From contig NZ_CP126738.1 of NCBI RefSeq assembly GCF_030246865.1, positions 2,976,001 through 3,040,000 of the forward strand: DNA of 64,000 bases, in the 5' to 3' direction. The stretch comes from Microbacterium sp. zg-B96 (GTDB taxonomy: Bacteria; Actinomycetota; Actinomycetes; Actinomycetales; Microbacteriaceae). Positions within the stretch are counted from its first letter, which is position 1. The number at the start of each line of letters is the position of its first letter. This document shows positions 19,766-57,934 of this stretch, in pieces. The notes under the pieces are model-generated. The model saw only the letters and a list, made by a program, of their open reading frames with translations, was not told where the DNA came from and made no database searches. The translations under genes were made by a program, and so were the position numbers.

Positions 19766-19844
19766 GCCGAGCGTAGGAGATGTGACGACGGTAGGACGGA
19801 TGCCGGCGCGGATCTCCTACGCTCGGCCCATTTCCTACGCTCGC
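19766..19844. repeat. Mirror-tandem repeat at convergent gene ends (GTAGGA word, period 18)
   Basis: Between galE (+) and the LacI gene (-). Two forward copies of GTAGGA start at 19773 and 19791 (18 apart) and two reverse copies, TCCTAC, start at 19815 and 19833 (18 apart). The outer arms 19766-19781 and 19812-19827 are perfect 16-base inverted repeats and would fold into a strong hairpin. The last copy enters the 3' end of the LacI gene. Probably a bidirectional terminator; the two-forward, two-reverse layout recurs elsewhere in the window. Confidence 0.75.
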
Positions 19845-20902
19845 GACGGTGCTCGTGACGGTGCGGCGCTCGGCGGCGGCGCGGTGCTCGCGCGCGGCAC
19901 GAGGGTCGCGGGCAGCAGCACCGACGCATGGCCGGCGCCCTCGATCGCGTCCACGAGCGCGGCGACGGCCGCAGCCCCCAGCTCGTCGAAGTCCTGTCGG
20001 ACCGTCGTCAGCGGCGGCCGGTAGTCGGCGGCATCCGCGACATCGTCGAACCCGACGACGCTGACCTCCTCCGGCACGCGGCGGCCGGCGTCGGCCAGCG
20101 CCCGCAGCGCACCCAGCGCCATCTGGTCGTTCGCGGCGAAGATCGCCGTGAGCTCGGCGTCGGGAGCGCCCAGCGCCGCGACCGCCTCGCGCCCGGATGC
20201 CGCAGTCCAATCGCCCCGCACCACCGGCGGCACTTCACGGCCTGCGCCTGCCAGTGCCGCCCGCCAGCCGCGTTCGCGCTCCCCCGCCGCGAACGACGCC
20301 TCGGGGCCGGCGAGGTGCCACACGGTCGCGTGGCCCAGCGCGAGCAGGTGCTCGGTCGCCGCCCGGGCGCCGGCAGCGTGGTCGGTGCGCACGACGGCGA
20401 ACCGGTCGTCCGGCGGCGAATCCACGACGACGAGCGCAAGGTCCGCCGGCGCAGTCGCGTCCCGCACGACGGCGGTGGCCTCGTTGAGCACGATGGCCCC
20501 GTCCACACCCTGGTCGCGCAGGCGCGCGAACGCGTCGCCGATGCCGGATGCCGCATCGAGGGTCACCACCGTGACGGCATAGCCGCGGCCGGCCGCGGCC
20601 TCGACGACGGCCTGCAGCATGCGGGAGTTGCCGATGGTCGCGAGCGTCGTCGCGACCAGGCCGATGGTCTGGGTGCGGCCGGTGCGCAGCGCCCGCGCGG
20701 CTCGGTGCGGCCGGTAGCCCAGTTCGGCCATGGCCTGCTCCACCCGTTCCCGCGTGACAGGATCCACGCGGGGGCTCGCGTTGACCACGCGCGAGACGGT
20801 CTGCCCGGAGACACCGGCGCGCGCGGCGACGTCGAGCATGGACACGCGGCGGCCGGGAGCGCGCTCGGGTCCTTGCAGATCCGCCAACGGGTCGTAGGCC
20901 AC
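19835..20902 (-). CDS. LacI family regulator of galactose genes (GalR-like)
   Basis: A 355-residue repressor with a LacI helix-turn-helix (SMLDVAARAGVSGQTVSRVV, residues about 21-40) after an unusually long 20-residue N-terminal arm, and a sensor domain ending in FDDVADAADYRPPLTTVRQ. It uses GTG at 20902 after GAGGGG. It is divergent from galTK, and the 67-base gap holds two related palindromes, so it very likely represses galTK and itself in the absence of galactose. The C-terminus is a low-complexity Ala/Pro/Ser tail running into the mirror repeat. Confidence 0.88.
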   Translation of the reverse strand: MAYDPLADLQGPERAPGRRVSMLDVAARAGVSGQTVSRVVNASPRVDPVTRERVEQAMAELGYRPHRAARALRTGRTQTIGLVATTLATIGNSRMLQAVVEAAAGRGYAVTVVTLDAASGIGDAFARLRDQGVDGAIVLNEATAVVRDATAPADLALVVVDSPPDDRFAVVRTDHAAGARAATEHLLALGHATVWHLAGPEASFAAGERERGWRAALAGAGREVPPVVRGDWTAASGREAVAALGAPDAELTAIFAANDQMALGALRALADAGRRVPEEVSVVGFDDVADAADYRPPLTTVRQDFDELGAAAVAALVDAIEGAGHASVLLPATLVPRASTAPPPSAAPSRAPSRA

Positions 20903-20925
20903 GGCGATCCCCTCTCACAAGCTCA

Positions 20926-20971
20926 TGTTGACGATAACACAGGCGCGGGCATACCATGTTGACGTGAACAT
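20926..20971 (+). promoter_or_regulatory. gal promoter with two operators
   Basis: TTGACG (20929-20934) and TACCAT (20952-20957) are separated by 17 bases, a good sigma-70-type promoter for galT. Start of transcription would fall near 20964-20970, at or next to the ATG, so the message is probably leaderless. The palindromes TGTTGACGATAACA (20926-20939) and TGTTGACGTGAACA (20958-20971) cover the -35 box and the start site. Their centres are 32 bases apart, three helical turns, so a repressor tetramer or loop could bridge them. Confidence 0.75.
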
Positions 20972-22135
20972 GCCTGAGTTCCACTCCCCCGAAGCCCTCA
21001 CCCTCGGTGCCGGCGTCGTCAAGCGCCCCACGCGCCTGGCCGACGGCCGCGACCTCATCTACTACGACGACCCCGACACCACGCTCGGTGCCGAGCGGGC
21101 CGTCGATGCCCGCGTGCTGGACCCGCGGCCGGCCACGGCCACGATGCGGCAGGACGTCCTCACCGGCGACTGGGTATCGGTGGCAACCTCCCGGCAGAAC
21201 CGCGCGTTCCTGCCGCCGGCGGAGCTGGACCCCCTCGCCCCGCAGACGGCGACGAACCCGTCGGAGATCCCCTCGCGCTACGACGTCGCGGTGTTCGAGA
21301 ACAAGTCCCCCTCGTTCGGTCCCGCCCTGGCCGAAGCCCACGGCGACGCCCCCGCCGCCGTCGACCCGCCCCGCGGCATCGAGGACCTCGAGCACCTCGG
21401 CCTCGGCCGCACCCGCACGTCCGTCGGCCGGTGCGAAGTGGTCTGCTTCAGCCCGGAGCACTCCGGGTCGTTCGGCACGCTGTCGGTCACGCGCGCCCGC
21501 ACCGTGATCGAGGCGTGGGCGGACCGCACGGCCGCGCTGTCGGCGCTGCCCGGCGTGGAGCAGGTGTTCCCGTTCGAGAACCGCGGTGAGGCGATCGGCG
21601 TCACCCTCCCCCACCCGCACGGCCAGATCTACGCGTACCCCTACATCACGCCGCGCACCACCCGCCTGCTGGATTCGATCGACCGCACCGCGCCGGATCT
21701 GTTCCAGCGCATCCTCGACTTCGAGCGCGGCAGCGACCGCGTGCTCATCGCCGGTGAGCACTGGACGGCGTTCGTGCCGTTCGCCGCCCGCTGGCCCATC
21801 GAGGTGCACCTGCTGCCGCATCGCCATGTGGCCGACTTCGCCGAGACCACCGAGGCCGAGCGTGATGAGCTCGCGCCGCTGTACCTGAAGCTGCTGCGCG
21901 GCGTCGACGCGCTCTACGACTCCCCGACGCCCTACATCGCCGCGTGGCATCAGGCGCCGGTCAACCACGGCCGCGACACCGTGCGGCTCAACCTGCAGCT
22001 GACCAGCCCCCGCCGCGCCGCCGACAAGCTCAAGTTCCTCGCCGGCAGCGAGGCGGCCATGGGCGCGTGGATCGGCGACGTGCCCCCCGAAGTCGCCGCC
22101 GACCGGCTGCGCACCGCCATCGAAGGAGTCTCCCT

Positions 22136-22139
<4 letters not shown>
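20970..22139 (+). CDS. galT: Galactose-1-phosphate uridylyltransferase
   Basis: A 389-residue class I GalT. The active-site HPHGQ block appears as LPHPHGQIYAYP near residue 215, with the middle His carrying the uridylyl group, and the second-half VHLLPHRH motif is also present. The start is placed at ATG 20970 because the promoter maps to the bases just before it; the open frame extends to 20925 but that would lie within the promoter. A GTG six bases earlier is an alternative. It overlaps galK (GTGA). It exchanges UMP between UDP-glucose and galactose-1-phosphate. Confidence 0.93.
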
Positions 22140-23326
<1,187 letters not shown>

Positions 23327-23360
23327 CCGGCGGCATCCGCCCCGCCTGCATCTCACCGGT

Positions 23361-23425
23361 ACAGGAGGAATCACCGGCACAGGACGATCCAGCGCGGATC
23401 GTCCTGTGTCCGGGATTCCTCCTGT
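23361..23425. repeat. Nested mirror repeat/hairpin between galK and the sugar importer (period 18)
   Basis: Two forward copies of an ACAGGA word begin at 23361 and 23379 and two reverse copies follow. The outer arm ACAGGAGGAATC pairs perfectly with GATTCCTCCTGT at the far end, and the inner arm CACAGGACGATCC pairs perfectly with GGATCGTCCTGTG around an AGCGC loop. The two arms differ from each other, yet each matches its partner. The genes on both sides converge here, so a bidirectional terminator is likely. Confidence 0.8.
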
Positions 23426-23463
23426 TTACGGGAGACGGTGAGCCGGGGAGACGCCGAGACGGC

Positions 23464-24432
23464 TCAGCCGCAGAAGGGCACGGCGCCGTCGAGGTTATCC
23501 GGTGTGATGAGTGAGATCTGCACCTGCGAGATCTTCTCGGCGGAGTCGTTGTCCAGCAGCGCGAGCGCGTTGGTGACGGCCGTCGCGCCCAGGTTGGACG
23601 CCGAGTCGGACACCGTGGCGGCGAACTTCCCCTCCTCGATCGCAGCGAGCCCGGGTTCCGTGCCGTTCATCGTGACGATGACGAGATCCTCCCGACCCGC
23701 GGCGTCGAAGGCGGTGCGGGCGCCGAAGGCCATGTCCTCGTTCAGCACGAACACGTAGTCAAGGTCGGGCTCGGCCTGGATCATGTTCTCGGCCACGCCC
23801 TGGGCCGCCGCGCGGTTGAACATTCCCGGCTGGTTGGCCACGATCGTGGCACTGGCCGGCAGCGCGCCCTCGAACCCGGCGACCACGTAGTCGCTCGACG
23901 CACCGGGGGCACCCGCGATGACGCCAACGGCGACCTCGGCACCCGCGGCATCCTCGGCGATCCAGCCGGCGGCCAGCGCACCGGCGCCGGCCAGGTCCAC
24001 CACGGTTGCACCGAGGATCTCGGAGGTGTCCTCGGGGACGACGGCGATGAGGTAAAGCGGCACGCCTGCGGCGGCGGCCTTCTGGATGCCGCCCTGCAGC
24101 GCATCCACGCTGACCGTGTTCAACAGGATCGCGTCGACCCCGCGGGAGATCATGTCCTCGACGTTGGCGAGCTCCTTCGCGGCATCCGCGTCGGAGTTGG
24201 CCGTGAGCAGTTCGACGCCGGCGTCGCTCGCGGCCGCCTCCACGCCACCCTGCAGGCAGGACCCCCACTCATTGTTCGCGCCACTGATGAACGCGATGCT
24301 GCGGTCGGCGGCCTCTCCTGCGGCGCCGTCGCCGGTGCCCCCGGGGTCAGCGGCGTCGGCGGCGCAGCCGGCGAGTGCGCCGGCGATCAGGGTGGCCGCG
24401 GCGAGCGCGGCGAATCGGTGCGGTGTCTTCAT
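23464..24432 (-). CDS. Ribose/galactose-type ABC substrate-binding lipoprotein
   Basis: A 322-residue periplasmic-binding-protein family 4 (RbsB-like) lipoprotein. Residues 1-22 form a signal with the lipobox LAGC at Cys23. The mature protein shows the type I binding-protein fold: ISGANNEWGSCLQGG near the start, DMISRGVDAILLNTV in the first lobe and FVLNEDMAFGARTAFDAAG in the second. It is the third gene of the importer operon, 55 bases behind the permease, with a small hairpin and AAAGGGACC before its ATG. The solute is not evident; pentoses, hexoses and autoinducer-type sugars are all known for the family. Confidence 0.9.
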   Translation of the reverse strand: MKTPHRFAALAAATLIAGALAGCAADAADPGGTGDGAAGEAADRSIAFISGANNEWGSCLQGGVEAAASDAGVELLTANSDADAAKELANVEDMISRGVDAILLNTVSVDALQGGIQKAAAAGVPLYLIAVVPEDTSEILGATVVDLAGAGALAAGWIAEDAAGAEVAVGVIAGAPGASSDYVVAGFEGALPASATIVANQPGMFNRAAAQGVAENMIQAEPDLDYVFVLNEDMAFGARTAFDAAGREDLVIVTMNGTEPGLAAIEEGKFAATVSDSASNLGATAVTNALALLDNDSAEKISQVQISLITPDNLDGAVPFCG

Positions 24433-24455
24433 GTGAGGTCCCTTTCTGGGTGCCG

Positions 24456-24473
24456 TCCCGCGTCGTTGCGGGA
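24456..24473 (-). other. Small hairpin between permease and binding-protein genes
   Basis: TCCCGC and GCGGGA form a perfect six-base stem around a six-base loop in the 55-base gap of the importer operon. Such intercistronic stems often stabilise the downstream segment and raise binding-protein synthesis over the membrane parts. That role is inferred. Confidence 0.4.
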
Positions 24474-24487
24474 AGGAGTCGGAGGTG

Positions 24488-25471
24488 TCAGCGGCGGCGC
24501 TGCCAGGCGTTGGCGACGGCGGCGATCAGCAGCACGGTCCCGACGGCCATCTGCTGCAGGTAGCTCGAGACGCCCAGCAGATTGAGGGCGTTGGCGACGA
24601 TCCCCAGCAGCAGCACGCCCAGCGCCGTGCCGATCATCGTGCCCTTGCCGCCGGCGAGCGCCGTGCCGCCGATGACGACGGCGGCCACTGCCTGCAGTTC
24701 GATCGTGAGCCCGGCGACGCCGGGGCTCGCGGCGGCGAGCCTGGCGAGCATCATGACTCCCGCGAGACCGGCCAGAGCGCCCATCAGCGTGTACAGCAAC
24801 ACCTTCGTCCGGGCCACGGCGATGCCGCTGAGCCGTGCGACGTCCTCGTTGCCGCCGATGGCGAAGGCATTGCGCCCGAACGAGGTGTACCGCAGGGTGA
24901 GGCCGAGCACGACACACACCGCGGCGGCGGCGATGAGCAGATACGGCACGCCCAGCACCGCGCCGTTGCCGAAGGTGTAGAGCGCTTCGCCGGCGGAGAC
25001 GCTCATGCCGTTGAGGATGAACAGGGCCAGCCCGTCGAGCAGCGTCGCGGTGGCCAGTGTCGCCACGAACGGCGCGACGCTGGTGAAGGTGATCACGAGG
25101 CCGTTGACGAGGCCGATGGCGGATGCCGCGACCAGCCCGACGATGATCGCCATGCCCGTGTCCGCTCCCCCGGCGATGAGCTGGGCGACGAGGGCCATGG
25201 TGACCACGGCGTTGGATCCCATCGAGAAGTCGATGCCCCCGGCGATCATGAGCACCGTGAGCCCCGCCGCGATCACGGCGATGACGCTCACCTGCCGCAG
25301 CACGTTGACCAGGTTGTTGGCGGTGAGGAAGGCGTCGGAGCCGAACGTGGTGACCACGACCAGTACCAGCAGCACGGCGATGAGGCCGGCGTGACCGCCC
25401 AGCATCCACCAGGGCCGGGTGGCGCGGCGAGCGAGCACCGTCGCGGAGGTGAGGGGCTGCAGTTCAGTCAT
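24488..25471 (-). CDS. Ribose-type ABC transporter permease
   Basis: A 327-residue RbsC/BPD_transp_2 family membrane protein with eight to ten hydrophobic segments. The conserved GGIDFSMGSNAVVTMA segment near residue 83 and AVVIGGTALAGGKGTMIGTALG near residue 265 are the family signatures; the latter contacts the ATPase. It overlaps the end of the ATPase gene by eight bases and precedes the binding-protein gene. It forms the channel for the solute bound by the downstream lipoprotein. Confidence 0.92.
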   Translation of the reverse strand: MTELQPLTSATVLARRATRPWWMLGGHAGLIAVLLVLVVVTTFGSDAFLTANNLVNVLRQVSVIAVIAAGLTVLMIAGGIDFSMGSNAVVTMALVAQLIAGGADTGMAIIVGLVAASAIGLVNGLVITFTSVAPFVATLATATLLDGLALFILNGMSVSAGEALYTFGNGAVLGVPYLLIAAAAVCVVLGLTLRYTSFGRNAFAIGGNEDVARLSGIAVARTKVLLYTLMGALAGLAGVMMLARLAAASPGVAGLTIELQAVAAVVIGGTALAGGKGTMIGTALGVLLLGIVANALNLLGVSSYLQQMAVGTVLLIAAVANAWQRRR

Positions 25472-26999
25472 GCGAGGTGTCTCCTACGGTCAGGGCGACG
25501 AGCTGGTCACGGGAGGCGTCGGCCACATCGAGCACGGCCAGCACGCGACCCGCGCTGACCACCGCGATGCGGTCAGCGAGGCGCTGCACCTCGGCGACAT
25601 CGGACGACGCAAGCAGCACGGCACTGCCGCCGGCGGCGAGGTCGTCGATGAGGCGGTGGATCTCGGCCTTCGCGGCGACGTCCACGCCGTTGGTGGGCTC
25701 TTCAAGGAAGCACACCCGCGGTGCGCTCTCGAGCCACTTGCCCAGCAGCACCTTCTGCTGGTTTCCGCCGGAGAGCTGCCCGACGGGCGGGTTGGCCTGC
25801 AGCGTCGTGACTCCGAATCGGGCGCGCAGGTCGGCGGCCCGCCTGCGCAGCGCGCCCCAGTTGACCAGCACCCGGCCCTGGGCGCGGTCCTGGGCCATCG
25901 TGATGTTCTCATCGACGGTGAGGCCGACGACCAACCCCTGGGAGAGACGATCGCCGGTGACGCAGCGCAGCCCGCTCGCCAGCGATCGGCGCACGCTCCG
26001 CCACGGCACGTCGACGCCGTCGACCCGCAGCGTGCCGGCATCCGGCGCCCGCAGCCCGGTGAGCGCGGCGAACAGGTCGCTCTGCCCATCGCCGGCCGGA
26101 CCGAGCACGGCGACGACTTCCCCTGCTCGCACATCGATCGAGGCATCCTGCAGCCGGTGCCCCACGGTGAGTCCGTCGATGCGCAGCCGTTCCTCGCCCG
26201 GGGTGCGTTCCCGCGCGGGGCGCTCGGTGTCAACGTGCTCGCCCACCATGGCGTACACCAGCGATCCGATGTCGAGGTCATCGCGAGCCACCGTCAACCG
26301 CCGGCGGCCATCCCGCAGCACCGTGACCCGATCGGCGAGATCGAGGATCTCATCGAGATGGTGTGAGATGTAGACGACCGCGCGCCCCTGATCGCGCAGC
26401 CGCTTCACCAGGGCGCGCACCTGCATGGCGGCGGCACCGCCGAGCGAAGCCGTCGGCTCGTCCAGCACCAGCACGCGGCCGCCGCGGTGCACTTCGCGGG
26501 CAATCTCGACCATGGTCTGCTCGGCCGCCGTCAACGCCCCGGCGCGGCGGCGGGGGTCCACCTCGACCCCGACGGCCCGCAGCGCGGCTTGGGCTTCGCG
26601 CATCATCCGACCCCACGACACGACGCCGGCGACACGGGGCAAGTCCCCCAGGAAGAGATTCTCGGCGACAGTGAGCGAGCCGACGAGATCCCGCTTCTGC
26701 GGCACCGTTGCGATGCCGTGCTCCCGGGCGCGGCGCGGGGTCAGGCCGGTGAGCAGCTCCCCGTCGAACACCATGACACCGTCGTCGGGCACGTGCGCGC
26801 CGCTGATCACCCCGACGAGGGTCGACTTCCCGGCCCCGTTCATGCCCACCAGCGCATGCACCTCGCCCGCGACCACATCGAAGTCCACGTCTCGCAGCGC
26901 GGCCGCGCCGCCGAAGGACTTGTGGATGCCGGTCAGCGCGAGCAGGGGGCCCTGCGCGGCCTGAGGCCGCGCAGGGCGGTCAGTGGATGAATCCGGCAC
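25464..26999 (-). CDS. Ribose-type ABC transporter ATPase (two fused domains)
   Basis: The 511-residue protein has the double nucleotide-binding layout of RbsA/MglA. The first domain has GMNGAGKST (Walker A) and VLVLDEPTASLG (Walker B); the second has the usual degenerate Walker A GPAGDGQSD and a canonical LSGGNQQKVLLGKWL signature. GTG 26999 is chosen as start since AGGGAGCACA lies directly before it and the length then matches the family; the open frame runs 71 codons further upstream without homology. It is the first gene of the importer operon and is divergent from the FAD monooxygenase. Confidence 0.9.
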   Translation of the reverse strand: MPDSSTDRPARPQAAQGPLLALTGIHKSFGGAAALRDVDFDVVAGEVHALVGMNGAGKSTLVGVISGAHVPDDGVMVFDGELLTGLTPRRAREHGIATVPQKRDLVGSLTVAENLFLGDLPRVAGVVSWGRMMREAQAALRAVGVEVDPRRRAGALTAAEQTMVEIAREVHRGGRVLVLDEPTASLGGAAAMQVRALVKRLRDQGRAVVYISHHLDEILDLADRVTVLRDGRRRLTVARDDLDIGSLVYAMVGEHVDTERPARERTPGEERLRIDGLTVGHRLQDASIDVRAGEVVAVLGPAGDGQSDLFAALTGLRAPDAGTLRVDGVDVPWRSVRRSLASGLRCVTGDRLSQGLVVGLTVDENITMAQDRAQGRVLVNWGALRRRAADLRARFGVTTLQANPPVGQLSGGNQQKVLLGKWLESAPRVCFLEEPTNGVDVAAKAEIHRLIDDLAAGGSAVLLASSDVAEVQRLADRIAVVSAGRVLAVLDVADASRDQLVALTVGDTSHD

Positions 27000-27108
27000 T
27001 GTGCTCCCTGCGCCATCGCAGTCTGCGCGGACGGCGTTCGTCCGCGAGGCAACCCCGGAGATGGGGTGCGTGCCGCCATCCTCCCCAGTGCACCGAAGCA
27101 TAAGGAGG

Positions 27109-41537: not shown

Positions 41538-41602
41538 GAGACCGCATCTGGCGGCCGAGACGGTGGTTATTTACCGCTGTCTCGGCCGCCAGTTGCTGTT
41601 TC
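41538..41602. repeat. Mirror-tandem repeat at convergent gene ends (GAGAC word, period 19)
   Basis: GAGAC occurs forward at 41538 and 41557 (19 apart), and reversed as GTCTC at 41579 and GTTTC at 41598 (19 apart, one change). The inner arms CTGGCGGCCGAGAC (41548-41561) and GTCTCGGCCGCCAG (41579-41592) are a perfect 14-base stem. The loop holds the TAA stop of the minus-strand hydrolase, so the element supplies that protein's last residues. Probably a bidirectional terminator. Confidence 0.7.
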
Positions 41603-48750: not shown

Positions 48751-48840
48751 GAGTGAGTATTCGTGCCGCCGAGTGAGTATTCGCGGTCGCGAGTGAGTAT
48801 TCGCGGTGAATACTCACTCGACGCGACGAATACTCACTCG
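48751..48840. repeat. Repeat array A: GAGTGAGTATTC mirror-tandem array
   Basis: Three forward copies of GAGTGAGTATTCG start at 48751, 48771 and 48791 (period 20) and two reverse copies follow at 48808 and 48828 (period 20). The array lies between the LLM stop and the AldO promoter, both on the minus strand. The same 12-base word forms array B at 57830-57934. Spacers are only 7-8 bases, so this is not CRISPR. It can fold as a long hairpin. Confidence 0.9.
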
Positions 48841-48849
48841 GCAGCGGGG

Positions 48850-49779
48850 TCAGAGGACGGCGGCGAGCGACTCCAGCGCGGCGACGGGATCGCCCAGCGG
48901 CGCGAACACCGAACTGTGCACGCCGGCGGCTGCCAGCTCGTCGATGCGCGCCCGCACCTGCGCGGGCGTGCCCGCCAGCGCCAGCTGCGCGACCCACTCG
49001 TCGGGAAGCGCCTGCGCGAACTCCTCGCGCGACGCGCTGCGAGCCCGGAGGGCATGGAACTCCGCCGCGAACGTCAGCGGGTCGATGTGCGGCGCCCAGT
49101 CCGGCTCCCCGATCCACGCCAGCGCGGGCCGGGCCGCGGCGAGCGCGGCAGCGGCATCCGCGTCGACGGACCCGACGTTGTACGCGACGAGCCGATGACC
49201 GGATGCCACACCGATTCGTTCCACCGCGGCGCGGGCGTACTCCGGGGTCACCGGCTCCGCCAGCACCGTGCCATCGGCGATGCGCCCCGACAGCGCGAGC
49301 GAACGCGGCCCGCGCACCCCCAGCAGCAGCGGCGGCGGGTCGGCCGGGACACTGGAGGCGTCCAGGCGCACACCGCCGGCGATCACGTCGCCGCGCAGCA
49401 GCGTGCGCAGCGTCGTCACATGCGTGTCGAGGGTGCGCAGCGGCGGGTCGGTCCACGCCCCGACGGACCGCATCCACTCCGGCATCCCGTGCCCGATGCC
49501 GGCGTGCAGCCGGCCGGGAAAGAGCTGCGCGAGGGTGGCCAGCTCCATCGCGCCGAACGCCGCGTTGCGGGCACCGGCGGGCAGGATGCCCAGCCCCACC
49601 CGGATGCGCTCGGTCCACGCCAACACGGCGCCGGCCTGCGCGATGCCGCCGCGGAACCCGAGATCCTCCACGACCCAGAGCTCATCGAACCCGAGGGCTT
49701 CTGCCCGAAGCGCGAACTCGCGCACGCGCGCCGGAGCGATGTTGCGGGGCAGCATGACCCCGATGTCGGGGCGGGTCAC
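48850..49779 (-). CDS. LLM class flavin-dependent oxidoreductase
   Basis: A 309-residue luciferase-like monooxygenase/reductase: LGFDELWVVEDLGFRGG near residue 30, IRVGLGILPAGARNAAFGAMELA near 60, and FPGRLHAGIGHGMPEWM near 88. GTG 49779 overlaps the aldo/keto reductase stop (GTGA), so the two are co-translated. They sit downstream of RhaR on the same strand. The role in or near rhamnose use is not evident. Confidence 0.86.
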   Translation of the reverse strand: MTRPDIGVMLPRNIAPARVREFALRAEALGFDELWVVEDLGFRGGIAQAGAVLAWTERIRVGLGILPAGARNAAFGAMELATLAQLFPGRLHAGIGHGMPEWMRSVGAWTDPPLRTLDTHVTTLRTLLRGDVIAGGVRLDASSVPADPPPLLLGVRGPRSLALSGRIADGTVLAEPVTPEYARAAVERIGVASGHRLVAYNVGSVDADAAAALAAARPALAWIGEPDWAPHIDPLTFAAEFHALRARSASREEFAQALPDEWVAQLALAGTPAQVRARIDELAAAGVHSSVFAPLGDPVAALESLAAVL

Positions 49780-50741
49780 CTCCCGTCCCGGGCGTCCTGC
49801 GCGTCCTGCGCGGCCAGCGGCGTGGGGGCGGCGCCCAGCCCGTCCAGCGCGACCCAGAGCGCGTCGGGCACCGTCACCGCGTGGAGGGCGAGCAACTGTT
49901 CCAGCCGCGGGATGGACGCGATCCCCACGATCGTGGAGTCCACCAGCGGCGAGCGCAGCGAGAAGTGCAGCGCGGCCGCGGCCAGCGGCACGCCGTGGTC
50001 GGCACACACCTCCTCGGCGCGGGCGATCCAGGCGACCAGCTCCGGCGGCGCATCGACGTAACCGTAGGTCGCGCGGGAATTCGCGCCCTTGGCGAGGATG
50101 CCGGCCCCGAACGGTGCCGCGTTGAACACGCCCATGCCCCGGCGACGCGCCTCGGTGAACAGCGCCTCGGCGCTGCGGTCGACGAGGGTGTAGCGATTGT
50201 GGGAGAGGACGACGTCGAACAGCCCGGTTTCGAGGTACTCGGTCATGAGCGGGATGGGACCGGCGGCGATGCCGATCGCATCGACGGCGCCGGAGTCGCG
50301 CAGTTCGCGCAGCGCGTCCACCGCGCCTCCGGGTGCGGTGGCCTCGGCGAACGTGACGCTGTACGGATCGTGGAAGTGCAGGATCTCGACCCGGTCCAGC
50401 CCCAGCCGGGCCAGGCTCTCTTCGTAGGAGCGCAGCACCCGGTCGCGGCCGAACGCGCCGGTCACAGGATCGCGATCGACCTTGGTCGCGATGCGGGCGG
50501 TCGCGCGAGACCCCACCGCCGCCAGCCCCAGCCCCAGCCCCAGCACCGTCTCGGAGCGGCCGTCGCCGTAGTTGTTGGAGGTGTCGATGAGCGGGATGGG
50601 GCCGGTCAGGAACGCCGCCGCGACCCTGACAGCCTCGGCCTCTTCGGGCGAGCCGGGCAGGCTCTGCTTGCCGAGCGCAGAGGTGCCGAGGGTGAGTTCG
50701 CCCACCGTCAGTCCCGTCGCGCCGAGATCGGTGTGTCGCAT
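49776..50741 (-). CDS. Aldo/keto reductase, aldose 1-dehydrogenase-like
   Basis: This 321-residue AKR resembles the D-threo-aldose (L-fucose) 1-dehydrogenase group: the start GATGLTVGELTLGTSALG, catalytic Asp and Tyr in LIDTSNNYGDGRSE near residues 52-65, Lys in ATKVDRD near 88, and His in LHFHDPY near 123. Such enzymes oxidise L-fucose, L-galactose or related aldoses to lactones. It starts 41 bases after the RhaR stop with GGAAGG before the ATG, so it may be in one operon with rhaR and the LLM gene. An alternative oxidative path for 6-deoxysugars is plausible. Confidence 0.83.
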   Translation of the reverse strand: MRHTDLGATGLTVGELTLGTSALGKQSLPGSPEEAEAVRVAAAFLTGPIPLIDTSNNYGDGRSETVLGLGLGLAAVGSRATARIATKVDRDPVTGAFGRDRVLRSYEESLARLGLDRVEILHFHDPYSVTFAEATAPGGAVDALRELRDSGAVDAIGIAAGPIPLMTEYLETGLFDVVLSHNRYTLVDRSAEALFTEARRRGMGVFNAAPFGAGILAKGANSRATYGYVDAPPELVAWIARAEEVCADHGVPLAAAALHFSLRSPLVDSTIVGIASIPRLEQLLALHAVTVPDALWVALDGLGAAPTPLAAQDAQDARDGR

Positions 50742-50782
50742 GGTGCACTGCCTTCCCTGATGGTGCTCGTCGAGCCGCCGGC

Positions 50783-51793
50783 TCACGCGCTCTCGGTGGA
50801 GTCGCGCACCACCAGCTCGGGCTGGAAGCGCACGTTGCGCTCGTGGTCCGCTGTCGGATCGGCCAGCTCCGCCAGCAGCAGATCCACCGCGGTGTAGCCG
50901 ATGAGGCTGGCCGGCTGACGGATGGAACTCAGCGGCACGACGGTGGATGCCGCGAAGTCGATGTCGTCGTAGCCGATGAGCGCGATGTCGTCGGGGATGC
51001 GCACGCCCGACATGATCGACAGCGCCTGGATCGCACCGACGGCCAGCAGGTCGTTCGCCGCGAAGATCGCGTCGGGCCTCGCGGTCATGCCGCGCTCGAG
51101 AACGGCAAGCCCTGCCTCCCGGCCGTGCAGCACGGTGAGGGCCGGCATCTCCACGACCTCCAGCGTCGCGCCGGCGACGGCCTCCACGGCTCGCCGCGCG
51201 CCCTGGAGGCGATCGGCGACCTGGCGCAGCGCCTGCGGCCCGCCCAGGAACATCAGGCGCCGCCGGCCACCGGCGAGCAGGTGGGATGCCGCGAGAAACC
51301 CGCCTTCGACGTCGTCGACCGACACCGAGCAGAACCCCGAATCGGGCATCTCGCGGTCGACGAGGATCACCGGCGTACCGGCATCCCGCAGCCGCGTCAG
51401 CCGCCCGATGTCGTCGGTGGTCGGGGTGATCAGCACGCCGTTGACCCGCTGCTCGAGGAAGAGGTCGAGATATCGCGCCTCGCGCGGAGCGTCCTCGTCG
51501 GCGTTGCCCAGCAGCACCGCCATGTCCGCTTCGTCGGCGCGCGCCTCGGCGCCGCGGGCGACATCGGCGAAGAACGGGTTGCCCGCATCCAGGACGACCA
51601 GGCCGATACTGCGACTGCGTCCGACCCGCAGCTGGCGGGCCGCGTCGTTGCGAACGAAGCCGAGCTGCTCGATGGCCCGCTGCACGCGTTCGACGGTGGC
51701 GGGCGCGACCTTCTCCGGCCGGTTCAGCACGTTGGAGACCGTGCCGACAGAGACCGTGGCCGCCGCAGCGACGTCCCTGATACTGACGACCAT
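50783..51793 (-). CDS. LacI family regulator of the rhamnose operon (RhaR-like)
   Basis: A 336-residue LacI repressor: helix-turn-helix SIRDVAAAATVSVGTVSNVL at residues 4-23, hinge ARQLRVGRSRSIGLVV, and sensor domain ending FAASTVVPLSSIRQP. It is divergent from rhaM-rhaI-esterase-rhaE-rhaB; the 132-base gap holds two palindromes. Rhamnose or rhamnulose would be the inducer by analogy with other actinobacterial LacI-type rhamnose regulators. Confidence 0.88.
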   Translation of the reverse strand: MVVSIRDVAAAATVSVGTVSNVLNRPEKVAPATVERVQRAIEQLGFVRNDAARQLRVGRSRSIGLVVLDAGNPFFADVARGAEARADEADMAVLLGNADEDAPREARYLDLFLEQRVNGVLITPTTDDIGRLTRLRDAGTPVILVDREMPDSGFCSVSVDDVEGGFLAASHLLAGGRRRLMFLGGPQALRQVADRLQGARRAVEAVAGATLEVVEMPALTVLHGREAGLAVLERGMTARPDAIFAANDLLAVGAIQALSIMSGVRIPDDIALIGYDDIDFAASTVVPLSSIRQPASLIGYTAVDLLLAELADPTADHERNVRFQPELVVRDSTESA

Positions 51794-51843
51794 CCGCGTC
51801 CCCTCGTCCGTCGCCCAGGTTATCGAGTGCGGCGACGCGCTGG

Positions 51844-51857
51844 GGCAAACGCTATCC
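51844..51857. promoter_or_regulatory. LacI-type operator upstream of rha -35
   Basis: GGCAAACGCTATCC resembles the pectin-regulon consensus (GGAAAnCGCTWTCC) with one changed base in the left arm. It lies 51 bases from the rhaR ATG and 69 from rhaM. It may let the uronate regulator touch the rhamnose operon, or be a second RhaR site. Confidence 0.55.
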
Positions 51858-51859
51858 GA

Positions 51860-51904
51860 TTGCGCGGAGGTACAGGGATGAGTTACCCTTTTTGAAACGA
51901 TTCA
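51860..51904 (+). promoter_or_regulatory. rha operon promoter and RhaR operator
   Basis: TTGCGC (51860-51865) and TACCCT (51884-51889), 18 bases apart, are a plausible promoter. The palindrome TGAAACGATTCA (51893-51904) covers the expected start site, a position suited to repression. The ATG of rhaM follows 21 bases later with GGAACAGGAACC as ribosome site. Confidence 0.6.
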
Positions 51905-51925
51905 CTCCCGGGAACAGGAACCTCA

Positions 51926-52306
51926 ATGACGAGACAGCCACAGCGCGTCTGCTTCCAGCTGCAGATCGAGCCTGAACTGCTCGACGAGTACATCCGCCGC
52001 CACAGCCCCGTCTGGCCGGAGATGCTGGCAGAGATCGCCGCCTCCGGCCGGCGCAACTACTCGCTGTTCCTGGGCGACGGCGGCCGCCTGATCGGTTACT
52101 ACGAGACCGACAACGACGACGCCGCTCAGGCCTACCTCGCCGCCTCCCCCGTCGCCGCGCGCTGGGAGGCCGAGATGTCCCGGTTCTTCGTGGGCCTGCA
52201 GGGCCGGCCGGACCAGGCATCCACTCCGCTGACCGAGATCTTCAACCTCCACGATCAACTGGCCGCATCCGTCGCGACCACCGACACGACAGAGAGCACC
52301 CGATGA
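51926..52306 (+). CDS. rhaM: L-rhamnose mutarotase
   Basis: A 126-residue dimeric alpha/beta-barrel protein of the RhaM family: CFQLQIEPELLDEYIRRHSPVWPEM near residues 9-33 holds the catalytic His, and NYSLFL with YYETDND follow. It interconverts alpha- and beta-L-rhamnose so that the isomerase receives the right anomer. First gene of the operon; its stop overlaps the rhaI ATG. The family is usually about 104 residues; the C-terminal tail here is slightly longer. Confidence 0.92.
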   Translation: MTRQPQRVCFQLQIEPELLDEYIRRHSPVWPEMLAEIAASGRRNYSLFLGDGGRLIGYYETDNDDAAQAYLAASPVAARWEAEMSRFFVGLQGRPDQASTPLTEIFNLHDQLAASVATTDTTESTR

Positions 52307-53469
52307 GCATCCTCACCCCCGACATCCAGGCCGCCCTGGCCCAGCAGGGCATCGAACTGCCCTCGTGGGCGTTCGGCAACTCCGGTACCCGGTTCCGCGT
52401 GTGGACCACCGAAGGAACCCCGCGCGACCCGTTCGAGAAGATCGCCGACGCCGCCGAGGTCAACCGCGTCACCGGTCTTGCCCCCTCGGTGGCACTGCAC
52501 ATCCCGTGGGACAAGGTCTCGGACTACAGCGTGCTGCGTCGCCACGCCGAGGACCTGGGCGTGAAGCTCGGCACGATCAACTCCAACACGTTCCAGGACG
52601 AGGACTATAAGTTCGGCGCCCTCACGCACGAGAACGAGGCCATCCGCCGCAAGGCGATCGACCACCACATCGAGTGCGTCGACGTGATGGATGCCACCGG
52701 CTCCCGCGACCTGAAGATCTGGCTCGCCGAGGGGTCGAACTACCCCGGCCAGACCGACATGCGCTCCCGTCAGGACCGCCTGCAGGACTCGCTGCAGCAG
52801 ATCTACGCCCGCCTGGCCGGCGAGCAGCGGCTCGTGCTGGAGTACAAGTTCTTCGAGCCGTCGTTCTACCACACCGATGTTCCCGACTGGGGAACGTCCT
52901 ACGTGCAGGTCGCCGCCCTCGGCGAGCGCGCCATGGTGTGCCTGGACACCGGCCACCACGCGCCCGGCACCAACATCGAGTTCATCGTGATGCAGCTGCT
53001 GCGCCTGGGCAAGCTCGGCTCGTTCGACTTCAACTCGCGCTTCTACGCCGACGACGACCTCATCGTGGGCGCCGCCGACCCGTTCCAGCTGTTCCGGATC
53101 CTGTTCGAGGTCATCCGCGGCGGCGGCCTGAACAACCCCGACGTGGCGTTCATGCTCGACCAGTGCCACAACATCGAGGCGAAGATCCCCGGTCAGATCC
53201 GCTCCGTGCTCAATGTGCAGGAGATGACCGCTCGCGCACTGCTGGTCGACCACAACGCGCTCGCCGCGGCGCAGACGGCGAACGACGTGCTCGGCGCGCA
53301 GGCGGTGTTCATGGATGCCTTCTACACCGACGTGCGTCCCGCACTGGCCGAATGGCGCGAGTCGCGCGGGCTTCCCGCCGATCCGATGGCCGCGTATGCC
53401 GCCTCCGGATACCAGGAGAAGATCGAGGCCGAGCGCGTCGGCGGGACCCAGGCCGGCTGGGGAGCCTGA
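52303..53469 (+). CDS. rhaI: L-rhamnose isomerase (RhaI type)
   Basis: This 388-residue TIM-barrel isomerase converts L-rhamnose to L-rhamnulose. It is of the RhaI (Pseudomonas stutzeri/actinobacterial) type, not E. coli RhaA: it shows SVALHIPWDKVSDY near residue 62, LEYKFFEPSFYHTDVPDWG near 182 with the metal-binding Glu, MVCLDTGHHAPGTNIE near 214 and DFNSRFYADDD near 245 with metal-binding Asp. Overlaps rhaM by four bases; the esterase gene follows after four bases. Confidence 0.93.
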   Translation: MSILTPDIQAALAQQGIELPSWAFGNSGTRFRVWTTEGTPRDPFEKIADAAEVNRVTGLAPSVALHIPWDKVSDYSVLRRHAEDLGVKLGTINSNTFQDEDYKFGALTHENEAIRRKAIDHHIECVDVMDATGSRDLKIWLAEGSNYPGQTDMRSRQDRLQDSLQQIYARLAGEQRLVLEYKFFEPSFYHTDVPDWGTSYVQVAALGERAMVCLDTGHHAPGTNIEFIVMQLLRLGKLGSFDFNSRFYADDDLIVGAADPFQLFRILFEVIRGGGLNNPDVAFMLDQCHNIEAKIPGQIRSVLNVQEMTARALLVDHNALAAAQTANDVLGAQAVFMDAFYTDVRPALAEWRESRGLPADPMAAYAASGYQEKIEAERVGGTQAGWGA

Positions 53470-53473
53470 CCCG

Positions 53474-54352
53474 ATGACGGAGCCGTTCGCCGCCGCCGAC
53501 GACCGCACGCTGGACGGTCCGCACGGCCCGTTCGGCGTGCGCGTCTACGCCCCCGCGGAGCCCGCCCGCGTGGGCCTGGTCTGGGCCCACGGCGGCGGAT
53601 TCGCCGGCGGCGACCTCGACATGCCCGAGGCGGACTGGGTCGCCCGGCAGCTGGCCGACCGCGGCATCGCGGTGGTCTCGGTCGACTACGCCCTCGCCCC
53701 GGTGCCGGCCGGATGGACGATGCCCCCGGCGGGCAACACGCGCGAGCGCCTGCGCTACCCGGTCGCCTCCGAGGAGGTCGGCTTCGCGTTCACCTGGGCC
53801 GTCGGTTCGGGCCTCGTCGCCGGGCCCTGGGCGCTGGGTGGGGCGAGCGCCGGCGCCAACCTCGCCACCGGCGCCGCGCTGCGCCTCGTGCACGAGGGCG
53901 GCCCGGTTCCTGCGCTGGTGGCGCTCGCGTACCCCACGCTCCACGCGGTGCAGGATGCTCCGGATGCCGACCTGCGGGCGCTGCTGGACGCCGACCCCGA
54001 CGCCGATCGGTTCGGTCCCGACGTCGTCCGCCGCATGTACGAGAACTACCTGGGTGGGTCGCTGGACGCCGCCGACGTCTACGCGGTCCCCGGCGCCGCG
54101 GCAGCCGCACAGCTGGCGGGGTTCCCGTCCGTGCTCATGATCAACGGCGAGGCGGACGAGCTGCGCATGTCGGGCGAGGCGTTCGCGCGCTCGCTCTCGG
54201 CAGCCGGCGTCCCCATCGAGGCCGTGACCGAACGCGGCACCCAGCACGGCCACCTCAACCGGCCCGACGAGGCCGCAGCATCCGCCTCGATCAAGCGCAT
54301 CGCCGCCCGACTTTCTGCACTTTCTCCCGCCACCGAAGGAACTCCCTCATGA
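53474..54352 (+). CDS. Alpha/beta hydrolase (HSL-type esterase) within the rhamnose operon
   Basis: A 292-residue hormone-sensitive-lipase family hydrolase: oxyanion WAHGGGFAGGD near residue 38, nucleophile in GGASAGANLATG near 122, and His in TQHGHLNRP near 256. It lies between rhaI and rhaE and overlaps rhaE (ATGA), so it is a true operon member. Removing acetyl or other acyl groups from rhamnose or rhamnosyl fragments before isomerisation is a sensible guess. A lactonase role is an alternative. Confidence 0.87.
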   Translation: MTEPFAAADDRTLDGPHGPFGVRVYAPAEPARVGLVWAHGGGFAGGDLDMPEADWVARQLADRGIAVVSVDYALAPVPAGWTMPPAGNTRERLRYPVASEEVGFAFTWAVGSGLVAGPWALGGASAGANLATGAALRLVHEGGPVPALVALAYPTLHAVQDAPDADLRALLDADPDADRFGPDVVRRMYENYLGGSLDAADVYAVPGAAAAAQLAGFPSVLMINGEADELRMSGEAFARSLSAAGVPIEAVTERGTQHGHLNRPDEAAASASIKRIAARLSALSPATEGTPS

Positions 54353-56385
54353 CCAACCCCGCAGCAGCCGAACTGATCGCCCGCAGCAACCGCCTGGGCG
54401 CGAACCCGAAGAACACCAACTACGCCGGCGGCAACACGTCCGCGAAGGGCACCGACACCGACCCCGTGACGGGGGAGCCGGTCGAGCTGCTGTGGGTCAA
54501 GGGCTCCGGCGGCGACCTCGGCACCCTGACCGAGGCAGGCCTGGCCGTGCTGCGCCTTGATCGCATGCGGGCGCTCGTGAACGTGTACCCCGGCGTCGAG
54601 CGCGAAGACGAAATGGTCGCCGCGTTCGACTACTGCCTGCACGGCAAGGGCGGCGCCGCCCCCTCGATCGACACCGCGATGCACGGACTGGTGGATGCCG
54701 CGCACGTGGATCACCTGCACCCCGACAGCGGCATCGCGATCGCGACCGCCGCCGACGGCGAGGAGCTGACCGCCACCATCTTCGGCGACAAGGTCGTGTG
54801 GGTGCCCTGGCGCCGCCCCGGCTTCCAACTGGGTCTGGACATCGCCGAGATCAAGGCGCAGAACCCGCAGGCCATCGGCTGCATCCTCGGCGGCCACGGC
54901 ATCACCGCGTGGGGCGAGACCTCCGAGGAGTCCGAGCGCAACTCGCTGTGGATCATCGAGACGGCGGCGATCTACATCGCCGAACACGGCAAGGCCGACC
55001 CGTTCGGCGGCATCCGCGCCGGCTTCGACGCCCTCCCCGAGGCCGAGCGTCACGCCCGTGCCGCAGCGCTGGCCCCGACGATCCGCGGCATCGCCTCGAC
55101 CGACAAGCCGATGGTGGGCCACTACACCGACAGCGCCGCCGTGCTGGACTTCCTCGCCGCCGAGAAGGCGCCGTACCTGGCCGGGCTCGGCACCAGCTGC
55201 CCCGACCATTTCCTGCGCACCAAGGTCAAGCCGCTCATCCTCGACCTGCCGGCCACGGCGACCGTGGACGAGCAGCTGGCGCGCCTGCAGGAACTGCACG
55301 CCGAATACCGCGCCGATTACCGGGCGTACTACGACGCGCACGCCGACGCGGACTCCCCCGCGATCCGCGGCGCCGACCCGCTCATCGTGCTGGTGCCGGG
55401 CGTGGGCATGTTCAGCTACGGCGCGAACAAGCAGACCGCTCGGGTGGCCGGTGAGTTCTACGTCAACGCCATCAACGTCATGCGCGGCGCCGAGTCGCTG
55501 TCGACCTACAGCCCCATTTCGGATGCCGAGAAGTTCCGCATCGAGTACTGGGCGCTGGAAGAGGCCAAGCTGCAGCGCATGCCCAAGCCCAAGACCCACC
55601 AGGGGCGCATCGCGTTCGTGACCGGCGCGGCCTCCGGCATCGGCAAGGCCATCGCCACCCGCCTGGCCGCCGAGGGTGCCTGCGTCGTCGTGGCCGACCT
55701 CGACCTCGAGAAGGCGCAGGCCGCCGCCGCCGAGCTCGGCTGTACCGACGTGGCGATCGGCGTCGCGGCGAACGTGGCGGATGCCGCGGGCGTGCAGGCC
55801 GCGATCGACGCGACCGTGCTCGCCTTCGGCGGCATCGACCTCGTCGTCAACAACGCCGGGCTGTCGCTGTCCAAGCCGCTGCTGGAGACCACCGAGAAGG
55901 ACTGGGACCTGCAGCACGACGTCATGGCGAAGGGCTCGTTCCTCGTCGCCAAGGCCGCCGCGAAGGCGCTCATCGCGCAGAAGATGGGCGGCGACGTCAT
56001 CTACATCTCCTCGAAGAACAGCGTCTTCGCCGGCCCCAACAACATCGCGTACTCGGCGACCAAGGCCGACCAGGCCCACCAGGTGCGCCTGCTGGCGGTG
56101 GAACTGGGCGAGCACGGCATCCGGGTCAACGGCATCAACCCCGACGGCGTCGTGCGAGGCTCCGGCATCTTCGCCGCCGGCTGGGGCGCCAACCGCGCCG
56201 CGACGTACGGCGTGAAGGAAGAGGACCTCGGCCAGTACTACGCCAACCGCACCATCCTCAAGCGCGAGGTCGTCCCCGAGAACGTCGCCGACGCGGTGTA
56301 CGTGCTCACCGGACCGGAGCTGACCCGCACCACGGGCCTGCACATCCCGGTGGACTCCGGCGTCGCCGCCGCTTTCCTGCGATGA
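54349..56385 (+). CDS. rhaE: Bifunctional rhamnulose-1-phosphate aldolase/lactaldehyde dehydrogenase
   Basis: The 678-residue fusion has an N-terminal class II aldolase domain (residues about 1-400) with metal His in HVDHLHPDSG near residue 122 and a late His in GGHGITAWGET, and a C-terminal SDR domain from about residue 418: VTGAASGIGKAIA, NNAGLS, SSKNSVF and YSATKAD. It would split rhamnulose-1-phosphate into dihydroxyacetone phosphate and L-lactaldehyde and oxidise the latter to L-lactate. Such RhaE/RhaEW fusions are known in Bacillus and actinobacteria. It overlaps genes on both sides by four bases. Confidence 0.92.
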   Translation: MTNPAAAELIARSNRLGANPKNTNYAGGNTSAKGTDTDPVTGEPVELLWVKGSGGDLGTLTEAGLAVLRLDRMRALVNVYPGVEREDEMVAAFDYCLHGKGGAAPSIDTAMHGLVDAAHVDHLHPDSGIAIATAADGEELTATIFGDKVVWVPWRRPGFQLGLDIAEIKAQNPQAIGCILGGHGITAWGETSEESERNSLWIIETAAIYIAEHGKADPFGGIRAGFDALPEAERHARAAALAPTIRGIASTDKPMVGHYTDSAAVLDFLAAEKAPYLAGLGTSCPDHFLRTKVKPLILDLPATATVDEQLARLQELHAEYRADYRAYYDAHADADSPAIRGADPLIVLVPGVGMFSYGANKQTARVAGEFYVNAINVMRGAESLSTYSPISDAEKFRIEYWALEEAKLQRMPKPKTHQGRIAFVTGAASGIGKAIATRLAAEGACVVVADLDLEKAQAAAAELGCTDVAIGVAANVADAAGVQAAIDATVLAFGGIDLVVNNAGLSLSKPLLETTEKDWDLQHDVMAKGSFLVAKAAAKALIAQKMGGDVIYISSKNSVFAGPNNIAYSATKADQAHQVRLLAVELGEHGIRVNGINPDGVVRGSGIFAAGWGANRAATYGVKEEDLGQYYANRTILKREVVPENVADAVYVLTGPELTRTTGLHIPVDSGVAAAFLR

Positions 56386-57818
56386 GCGGGTCGGGCTCGA
56401 TGGGGTCCGGCGCCGTTGCGGCGGTCGACCTCGGCGCCACCAGCGGGCGGGTCATCGTCGGCCACGTCGGGCCCGACACGCTGGAGGCCACCACGGTCGG
56501 CCGGTTCCCCAACGACCCGGTTGTGACCGTCGATGGGCTGCACTGGAACCTGCTCGGGCTGTACGGCGCCGCGCTGACCGGTCTTCGGGAGGCGTTCCGG
56601 CAGGCGCCGGACATCGCGAGCATCGGCGTGGACTCGTGGGCGGTCGACTACGGACTGCTGCGGGCCGGCCGGCTGCTGGGTTCGCCCTTCCACTACCGCG
56701 ACACCCGCACCGAGCGGGGCGTCGCGGCGGTGCACGAGCGGATGCCGCATGCTGAGTTGTACCGGCGCAACGGGCTGCAGTTCCTGCCGTTCAACACGCT
56801 GTACCAGCTGGCGGCGGAGCCGGCGGCGCTCTTGGACTTCGCCGACACCGCGCTGCTGGTGCCCGACCTGATCGGGTACTGGCTCACCGGCCAGGCCCGT
56901 GCCGAGTCGACCAACGCCTCGACCACGGGGCTGCTGCGCGGTGGCGGCAGCGGCTGGGATGACGAGCTGATCGCTGCGCTGGGCCTTCCCCGCGGCATCC
57001 TGCCGGAGCTCATCGCTCCGGGCGAGCGCCTCGGGGCGCTGCTGCCGGAGGTGGCGGCATCGCTCGGCGCCGCGTCGGTGGGCGTGACGGCGGTCGGCTC
57101 CCACGACACCGCTTCGGCGGTCGTGGCGGTGCCGATGCGGGCGGAGTCGGCGGCCTACATCTCCTGCGGGACGTGGGGCCTGGTCGGCGTGGAAGTGGAG
57201 AGCCCCGTGCTCACGGCGGAGGCGCTCGATGCGAACTTCACCAACGAGGGCGGCGTGGACGGCCGCGTGCGGCTGCTGCACAACGTGATGGGCCTGTGGG
57301 TGCTGAGCGAGGCGGTGCGCGGCTGGGAGCGGGAAGGGCACCGCATCGACCTGCCGACGCTGCTGGATTCGGCGGCCGACGTGGATGCGGCATCCGTGCC
57401 GGTGTTCGACGTCGACGACCCGCGGTTCATGCCGCCGGGCGACATGCCCGCGCGCATCGACGCGTGGTGCGCGGAGCACGGTGTCGCTGCTCCCCGCTCG
57501 CGCGCCGAGTACACCCGGTCGATCGTGGAGTCGCTGGCGCAGGCGTTCGCCGACACGGCCCGGCTCGCCGGGCGCATCGGCGGCGTGGACGTGCAGACGA
57601 TCCACATCGTCGGCGGCGGGTCCCTGAACCGGCTGCTGTGCCAGCGCACCGCCGACCGCGCCGGGCTCGAGGTGCTGGCCGGTCCCGTCGAGGCGACCGC
57701 GCTGGGGAACCTCCTGGTGCAGGCGCGCGCCGCCGGCCTGGTGTCGGGGTCCCTCGAGTCGCTGCGCGATCTCGTGGCCCGCACCCACGCCCCGACGCGC
57801 TACACCCCGCGCCCCTGA
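56382..57818 (+). CDS. rhaB: Rhamnulokinase
   Basis: A 478-residue FGGY-family kinase that phosphorylates L-rhamnulose. It shows the N-terminal phosphate loop AAVDLGATSGRVIVG, SIGVDSWAVDYGLL near residue 82 with the catalytic-site Asp, VGSHDTASAVVAVP near 240 and the FGGY-signature region VGGGSLNRLLCQ near 407. Last gene of the operon (ATGA overlap with rhaE); it ends 12 bases before repeat array B. Confidence 0.93.
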   Translation: MSGSGSMGSGAVAAVDLGATSGRVIVGHVGPDTLEATTVGRFPNDPVVTVDGLHWNLLGLYGAALTGLREAFRQAPDIASIGVDSWAVDYGLLRAGRLLGSPFHYRDTRTERGVAAVHERMPHAELYRRNGLQFLPFNTLYQLAAEPAALLDFADTALLVPDLIGYWLTGQARAESTNASTTGLLRGGGSGWDDELIAALGLPRGILPELIAPGERLGALLPEVAASLGAASVGVTAVGSHDTASAVVAVPMRAESAAYISCGTWGLVGVEVESPVLTAEALDANFTNEGGVDGRVRLLHNVMGLWVLSEAVRGWEREGHRIDLPTLLDSAADVDAASVPVFDVDDPRFMPPGDMPARIDAWCAEHGVAAPRSRAEYTRSIVESLAQAFADTARLAGRIGGVDVQTIHIVGGGSLNRLLCQRTADRAGLEVLAGPVEATALGNLLVQARAAGLVSGSLESLRDLVARTHAPTRYTPRP

Positions 57819-57829
57819 CCCCCGCTGCC

Positions 57830-57934
57830 GAGTGAGTATTCCTGCCCTCGAGTGAGTATTCGCGCCCTCGAGTGAGTACGTGAATACTCACTCGGCCGCA
57901 GCAATACTCACTCGGCAGCAGCAATACTCACTCG
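57830..57934. repeat. Repeat array B: GAGTGAGTATTC mirror-tandem array
   Basis: Forward copies start at 57830, 57850 and 57870 (period 20; the third is cut to GAGTGAGTAC), and three reverse copies with the same core follow at 57882, 57902 and 57922 (period 20). It lies between rhaB and the converging MaoC gene. It shares its 12-base word with array A, 9 kb away on the other side of the rhamnose module. Confidence 0.9.

Follow-up and report, generated by a model that had tools for sequence, protein, structure and literature searches.

Gene-end elements of Microbacterium form a clade-structured class with a constant layout and changing words

What kind of element sets a short word in direct copies and then in inverted copies, at nearly the same period, at one gene end after another? 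The question is raised by five loci in the window, the whole 64-kb stretch analysed (G000:C1:2976001-3040000) from the genome of Microbacterium sp. zg-B96, a single contig of 3.41 Mb. The loci fall into four families, F1 to F4. At the 19766 locus, GTAGGA stands at 19773 and 19791 and TCCTAC at 19815 and 19833 (period 18/18), forming an F2 element (19768..19843, no strand) with two forward and two inverted copies of CGAGCGTAGGA. It lies between the converging genes 18749-19726(+) and 19835-20902(-), its last 9 bases falling inside the minus gene as called. At 23361, ACAGGA occupies 23361 and 23379 and TCCTGT 23402 and 23420, again at 18/18. This F3 element (23357..23425, no strand) carries CCGGNACAGGA in two forward and two inverted copies at period 18, between the converging genes 22136-23326(+) and 23464-24432(-). 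The F4 element (41538..41602, no strand) is a 65-base hairpin with GARAC twice forward and GTYTC twice, in the geometry 19-27-19: GAGAC at 41538 and 41557 is followed by GTCTC at 41579 and GTTTC at 41598 (period 19/19; the last copy has one mismatch). The stop codon of the minus-strand gene (41567-41569) lies in the loop, and the right arm is made of that gene's last codons.

The remaining two loci share the F1 word GAGTGAGTATTC at period 20. At 48751, a plus-strand array (48751..48802) holds three forward copies, at 48751, 48771 and 48791. Five bases past it, a minus-strand array (48808..48839) holds two inverted copies, at 48808 and 48828, and lies 10 bases from the stop of the minus gene 48850-49779. 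At 57830, the plus-strand array (57830..57878) begins 11 bases past the stop of the plus gene 56400-57818, with intact copies at 57830 and 57850 and a broken third at 57870. Its minus-strand partner (57882..57933) has inverted copies at 57882, 57902 and 57922, the outer two of which read CAATACTCACTC, with one mismatch. The 48751 locus lies between two minus-strand genes, and the other four have converging genes on both sides, by gene calls from our own codon model, on which every gene-end count given here rests. The ten proteins flanking the loci are, by Pfam, ordinary enzymes, a helicase, sugar-binding proteins and a LacI-type regulator. The initial annotation had reported these words, the periods 18, 18, 19, 20 and 20, the placement of four loci between converging genes and the perfect matches of both nested arms at 23361, all of which agree with the exact positions and the gene calls.

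The layout recurs well beyond the window. In 1110 intergenic regions (177 kb, stretches of 12 genomes), a scan for any 6-mer with two forward and two inverted copies at the same period, with 8-40 allowed, finds mirrored words in 34 regions, in a sample where several stretches were picked for holding F1 and orthologous loci of close relatives are counted repeatedly. The only periods are 18 (9), 19 (3) and 20 (22), and two of the period-18 regions resemble other repeats (an 18-base GC repeat and one with CTTCGG) and may not belong. Twenty dinucleotide shuffles give four mirrored words in total (0.2 per run), at periods 9, 17, 34 and 37. Convergent gaps, 186 of the regions scanned, hold 19 of the 34. 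A second scan, which takes in coding sequence, covers 61 loci of other genomes and returns six matches: two elements (periods 20 and 19), one between genes at 12, and those at 24, 35 and 35 inside the matched gene. The scanned stretches of G005, G045, G126, G002, G011 and G014 contain no mirrored words; G045 and G126 carry such elements elsewhere in their genomes. The claim of one architecture with a near-constant period thus stands. A genome-wide search and a comparison with shuffled intergenic sequence had also been proposed; the former yields many further examples and the latter is almost empty, so both outcomes favour the annotation.

Contrary to the claim that the words are specific to their loci, each has family members at other places in the genome. 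F1 has 213 exact copies in zg-B96 (114 forward, 99 inverted), against none for the reversed-pattern control. F1 pairs at exactly 20 bases number 74+60 in zg-B96, 86+86 in G118, 14+17 in G031 and 8+5 in G025 (M. pullorum), with none in the remaining 145 of the 149 genus genomes. G118, G031 and G025 are the nearest among 25 relatives compared by one protein (80-82% identity; the next reaches 74%). F2 pairs at 18 occur eight times in zg-B96 and in none of the other 148 genus genomes, and F3 at 18 is present in 6 of the 149. F2 and F3 have a common skeleton, AGGA-14-AGGA..TCCT-14-TCCT, found at 24 places in zg-B96 (reversed control, 0). Across the family, 27 of 299 genomes match the skeleton, against about 30 for the reversed control (1-2 each). 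Elements of 61-62 bases on this skeleton are seen in G045 (2) and G043 (1) within the genus and in G247 (2) and G340 (1) in other genera; single matches outside zg-B96 are at control level by number and rest on likeness, and G340 also has one control match. F4 (GARAC at 19, 65 bases in all) counts 11 in the sampled zg-B96 sequence, one of them mismatched, 3 in G118 and 4 in G031. Another period-19 element of zg-B96, at 164.6 kb, has the word GAGAAACCA. At the same period, TTTGGGGCG occurs in 19 of the 149 genus genomes, none being zg-B96, several of them with mirrored pairs that span 65-66 bases, and CGCATAAACGC is found in G007. A separate GGTCGTC..GACGACC family is also present. Other Microbacterium genomes thus carry the same layout with other words, and the elements form a real, clade-structured class at gene ends.

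The F1 word is tightly kept. Four genomes supply 305 units, in which positions 1-7, 9 and 11 are nearly invariant; T to C at 10 and 8 and C to G at 12 are tolerated; 287 units have G or A at position 13, and 271 have C or T at position 14. Arrays in the sample have two to eight copies, most commonly three in zg-B96 and G118 and two in G031. Lone intergenic words (at most one mismatch) number zero in 784 kb of zg-B96 and in 420 kb of G118. Five intergenic words lie outside arrays in 440 kb of G031, where tandem copies are consequently not obligatory.

In the set of 89 F1 arrays (42 from zg-B96, 25 from G118, 14 from G031, 8 from G025), a same-sense stop codon lies within 40 bases of 59 and an opposite-sense stop is found for 22. 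The gene's TGA stop is inside the word in 23, and GAGTGA gene ends occur in 23 of the 59 genes abutting sense arrays versus 10 of 651 other zg-B96 genes. Array pairs at most 150 bases apart are forward-then-inverted in 21 cases and inverted-then-forward in none, orthologs being counted separately here and in the next two counts. Another twelve forward-then-inverted pairs have 0.6-3.2 kb between their arrays, in most cases with one or two genes of ordinary appearance. In 22 convergent gaps with a single array, the nearer stop is the sense one in 17 and the other in 4, with one tie. One inverted-then-forward pair within 5 kb exists, in G118, 3.6 kb apart. Tandem gaps with a single array hold 10 in sense and 7 in antisense, and divergent gaps hold seven arrays. 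Orientation is a preference and no strict rule; small genes missed by the calls could account for some of the off-orientation arrays. Two purposes considered for F1 were set aside. Three words at period 20 give TGA in every frame, and a role in providing stop codons leaves the conserved 12-mer unexplained. The arrays as borders of gene cassettes find no counterpart in the enclosed genes, whose translations are ordinary by eye, with no obvious recombinase.

Comparison between species separates the word from its surroundings. Orthologous F1 arrays of zg-B96, G118 and G031 keep place and orientation and shift in copy number (3/4/2 or 5/4/2, for example). In 24 orthologous pairs, the words are 97.5% identical (772/792), a value raised by ascertainment because arrays are located via the word, and the spacers 56% (188/336), with 55% for random spacers. 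Neighbouring spacers within an array are alike (0.76 versus 0.55 for random spacers), so F1 arrays grow by tandem duplication; the special duplication process once suggested is to this extent supported, for copy number within arrays. Between opposite arms the spacers resemble each other less than in swapped pairs (0.437 versus a swap null of 0.517, the observed value being equalled or exceeded in 497 of 500 nulls). A mirrored F1 locus is therefore a pair of independent arrays set back to back, and an origin as a palindrome is rejected because the spacers are not complementary. F4 is the opposite, a true hairpin with compensatory changes: in 18 elements, 21-27 of 30 positions are paired and nine pairs have changed on both sides with pairing kept, the GARAC words remaining unchanged. 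At one F4 locus, zg-B96 and G118 differ across almost the whole outer spacer and pairing is retained.

Two genes illustrate the turnover. A FAD oxidoreductase gene faces the 535-aa gene in convergent orientation, and behind the latter F1 stands in zg-B96 (four copies), G118 (two) and G031 (two). In G007, a mirrored CGCATAAACGC element at 19 follows and then, by eye, a small gene before the oxidoreductase; in M. pullorum a long palindrome is seen by eye, without tandem words. Across the same gap, the oxidoreductase gene is followed by an F4-type element in G145. At the 535-aa gene end, the other relatives among 24 printed loci show no such element by eye. The 836-aa gene has no array in G130, where the gene order is the same and the gap is below 25 bases. 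Because G130 has this 836-aa/minus-gene order without arrays, arrays arise in existing gaps. M. pullorum also has no array there, and its gene ends in CGAGTGA, the start of the F1 word; arrays perhaps begin where a stop codon already resembles the word. Some F2 and F4 elements of zg-B96 likewise have no counterpart in orthologous gaps. A short GNAT-like gene (197165-197747 in zg-B96) is missing from G118, a real difference between the two.

The preferred reading, for which we judge the chances about even from sequence features, is that the elements are terminator-like at gene 3' ends, on one plan in which a lineage-specific word is repeated at 18-20 bases. Their place, their orientation and the other hairpins at comparable gene ends suggest that they end or protect transcripts. 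A stable hairpin at the gene 3' end, as expected of an intrinsic terminator, is predicted, and for F2-F4 long hairpins are possible on both strands. A U-rich tail after the stem is absent at four of the five loci, the terminator pattern being matched only at 41548-41592, in the 41538 locus. The remark that plain terminators do not need direct copies is judged right. Some of the gaps that hold arrays elsewhere are without them in M. pullorum and G130, which speaks against a terminator.

Under the terminator-like reading, the two arms of an F2, F3 or F4 element would form a single long hairpin that serves either strand, and F1 would act through a polar word, neighbouring copies pairing in the sense RNA into a 12-pair stem with an 8-base loop. 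At least two copies would therefore be needed, the array would follow the gene it serves, and convergent genes would receive a forward array and then an inverted one. Bases 3-14 of the F1 sense RNA (GUGAGUAUUCRY) are self-complementary counting G-U, and the antisense RNA has A-C mismatches at those positions, an argument based on one word. The base preferences at positions 13 and 14 are what pairing with U4 and G3 asks. Two neighbouring words in sense are predicted to fold at -9.6 or -16.2 kcal/mol by spacer, and at -20.8 with T10C; the antisense of the first gives -5.6. Over 215 words, the predicted word-to-word pairing probability within arrays is 0.51 in sense and 0.16 in antisense. The sense RNA has the stronger predicted fold in 81 of the 89 arrays (mean z -2.3 versus -0.67 for antisense), a contrast that stems from the F1 word itself in arrays that are not independent. 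A hairpin within a single F1 word was discarded, its predicted pairing probability being only 0.09.

A symmetric DNA site would yield the same base preferences in F1, and RNA pairing is favoured over it by the orientation bias only. F1 arrays could be tandem sites of a putative sequence-specific DNA-binding protein that acts as a one-way roadblock for RNA polymerase, in the manner of TTF-I at Sal boxes, with the word changing in lineages when the protein's specificity changes. Its tandem sites would match the near-invariant 12-mer with free spacers, the tandem copies without lone words in zg-B96 and G118, and a period near two helical turns. The degenerate palindrome RYGARTAYTCRY would suit a dimer, and the unpaired opposite-arm spacers (0.44 versus 0.52) indicate that an arm-to-arm hairpin is not what F1 keeps. 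A palindromic site, however, does not need strict asymmetry, periods 18 and 19 fall off the two-turn face, and a DNA site would not need the covarying F4 spacers; we regard the roadblock as rather unlikely.

Miniature mobile elements, each arm bearing a pair of binding sites in the fashion of arrayed transposase sites, are an improbable source of the mirrored layout, although the confinement of F2 pairs to eight places in one genome, the own F2 and F4 elements missing from some orthologous gaps and the nearly fixed sizes (61-62 and 65-66 bases) are in their favour. The idea of a mobile class, raised in the initial annotation, is not supported for F1, whose position and orientation are kept between species and whose arrays enclose genes that look ordinary by eye in translation, but it may hold for the period-18 family. 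F1 is absent from phage, plasmid and IMG/VR collections save three chance-level phage matches (E 4), and a phage or plasmid origin was rejected. No target duplication is discernible, the flanks of orthologous gaps without an element being too diverged to reveal one. A REP/RAYT system was likewise rejected, as PF01797 (Y1 HUH) is found in none of the zg-B96 proteins and in 1 of 149 genus genomes. Very improbable, and disfavoured, is the growth of ordinary hairpins and short repeats by slippage, with a word that has no role: adjacent spacers are alike and copy number differs between species by whole units, yet the period of 18-20 recurs in different words and genomes, and words are conserved while spacers are not.

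Beyond the terminator-like reading, it is possible, if doubtful, that a gene-end class of fixed layout (period 18-20, at least two copies per arm) has its word swapped wholesale between lineages, which would imply a trans-acting factor co-evolving with many 3' ends, and that in the F1 clade a polar array acts via the sense RNA only. To our knowledge, the mechanism by which transcripts end without a U-tail in high-GC actinobacteria is not well settled. Arrays that tend to follow the gene's orientation and are conserved word by word, matched in relatives by the same geometry with different words, offer a testable handle on 3'-end formation, and the system allows one to ask whether a 3'-end signal can be replaced genome-wide.

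Rfam gives no match at gathering threshold in the window; below it, most matches of the 57830 array are to eukaryotic microRNA families (best E 8e-7), which is read as an effect of the long hairpin. Full-text literature searches for the word and the architecture found no description by title or abstract, in a coverage outside which most subscription journals lie. REP and REPIN elements are short palindromic repeats that, as here, come in more than one family within a genome and occur downstream of genes as well as between convergent ones; the roles suggested for them are as RNA elements or as sequences propagated by RAYT transposases, and tandem REPs of SBW25 are spaced at 72 and 112 bases (PMC3733652, PMC3116915). 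They are the nearest known kind in look and place, yet the required RAYT is missing here. The present elements also differ in repeating their unit directly within an arm, at 18-20 bases, and in the oriented F1 arrays of up to eight copies. The REP-type GTAG/CGTC end tag of a 20-40 base palindrome is absent by eye from the F1, F3 and F4 words, and F2 has GTAG inside its word.

Bidirectional intrinsic terminators of convergent genes place a strong hairpin right after the stop codons, usable on both strands. The elements share the hairpin after the stop but differ in the missing U run at four of five loci, the direct word copies and the frequent single orientation of F1 without an opposite arm. 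Tn402/Tn7-like ends carry tandem transposase-binding sites, each about 20 bases long, in opposite orientation at the two ends; unlike these, the elements here are 61-69 bases long, and inspection by eye shows no transposase among the genes enclosed by F1 arrays. Sal boxes are arranged as a tandem array. The Sal box of TTF-I is an 18-base motif at a transcription terminator, bound in an orientation-dependent manner (PMC11358750). It belongs to eukaryotic Pol I, and its protein is known, whereas a protein at the elements here is putative. Mycobacterial MIRUs, actinobacterial tandem repeats overlapping stop codons, have longer units that are not mirrored; the Microbacterium elements share the tandem repeats over stop codons and are shorter and mirrored.

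In the zg-B96 genome, forward and inverted arrays of F1, the period-20 word family found at gene 3' ends, enclose a short gene that is GNAT-like by eye (197165-197747, L057). At the counterpart of this site in another Microbacterium genome, G118 (L078:9134-9197), the arrays are present and the GNAT-like gene is absent. In G031, at the ortholog of the F1 locus at window 57830 (L085:2809-3906), the first word is split from the remaining array by an extra plus-strand gene. At ~689.0-689.26 kb of zg-B96 (L060:9001-9263), an element similar to F3, a period-18 mirrored family, includes GAATACTCAC, a fragment of the F1 word, and its position is occupied in G118 by a forward F1 arm. The zg-B96 element looks like turnover or a hybrid.

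In the period-19 F4 hairpin, the loop holds the stop codon of a minus-strand gene, so that the right arm codes for the last residues of the protein (window 41567-41602).

Three tandem copies of TTTGGGGCG, all in the same orientation, lie at C1:458103-458149 of G112; arrays of one orientation may occur beyond F1. A period-18 tandem repeat of GGGTACCCCTGCGCCGGC in zg-B96 (L068:18592-18984), in a gap called divergent, perhaps belongs to an uncalled gene.

Also in zg-B96, the palindromic family CGCTCNCCTGTCAC..GTGACAGGCGAGCG occupies gaps of converging genes (L064:18996-19240 and L066:1492-1582), and another, GGTCGTCACGAA..GCGACGACC (L066:15640-15862, L069:16772-16953 and L071:1691-1895), recalls the CGTC-tagged REPs, short palindromic gene-end repeats.
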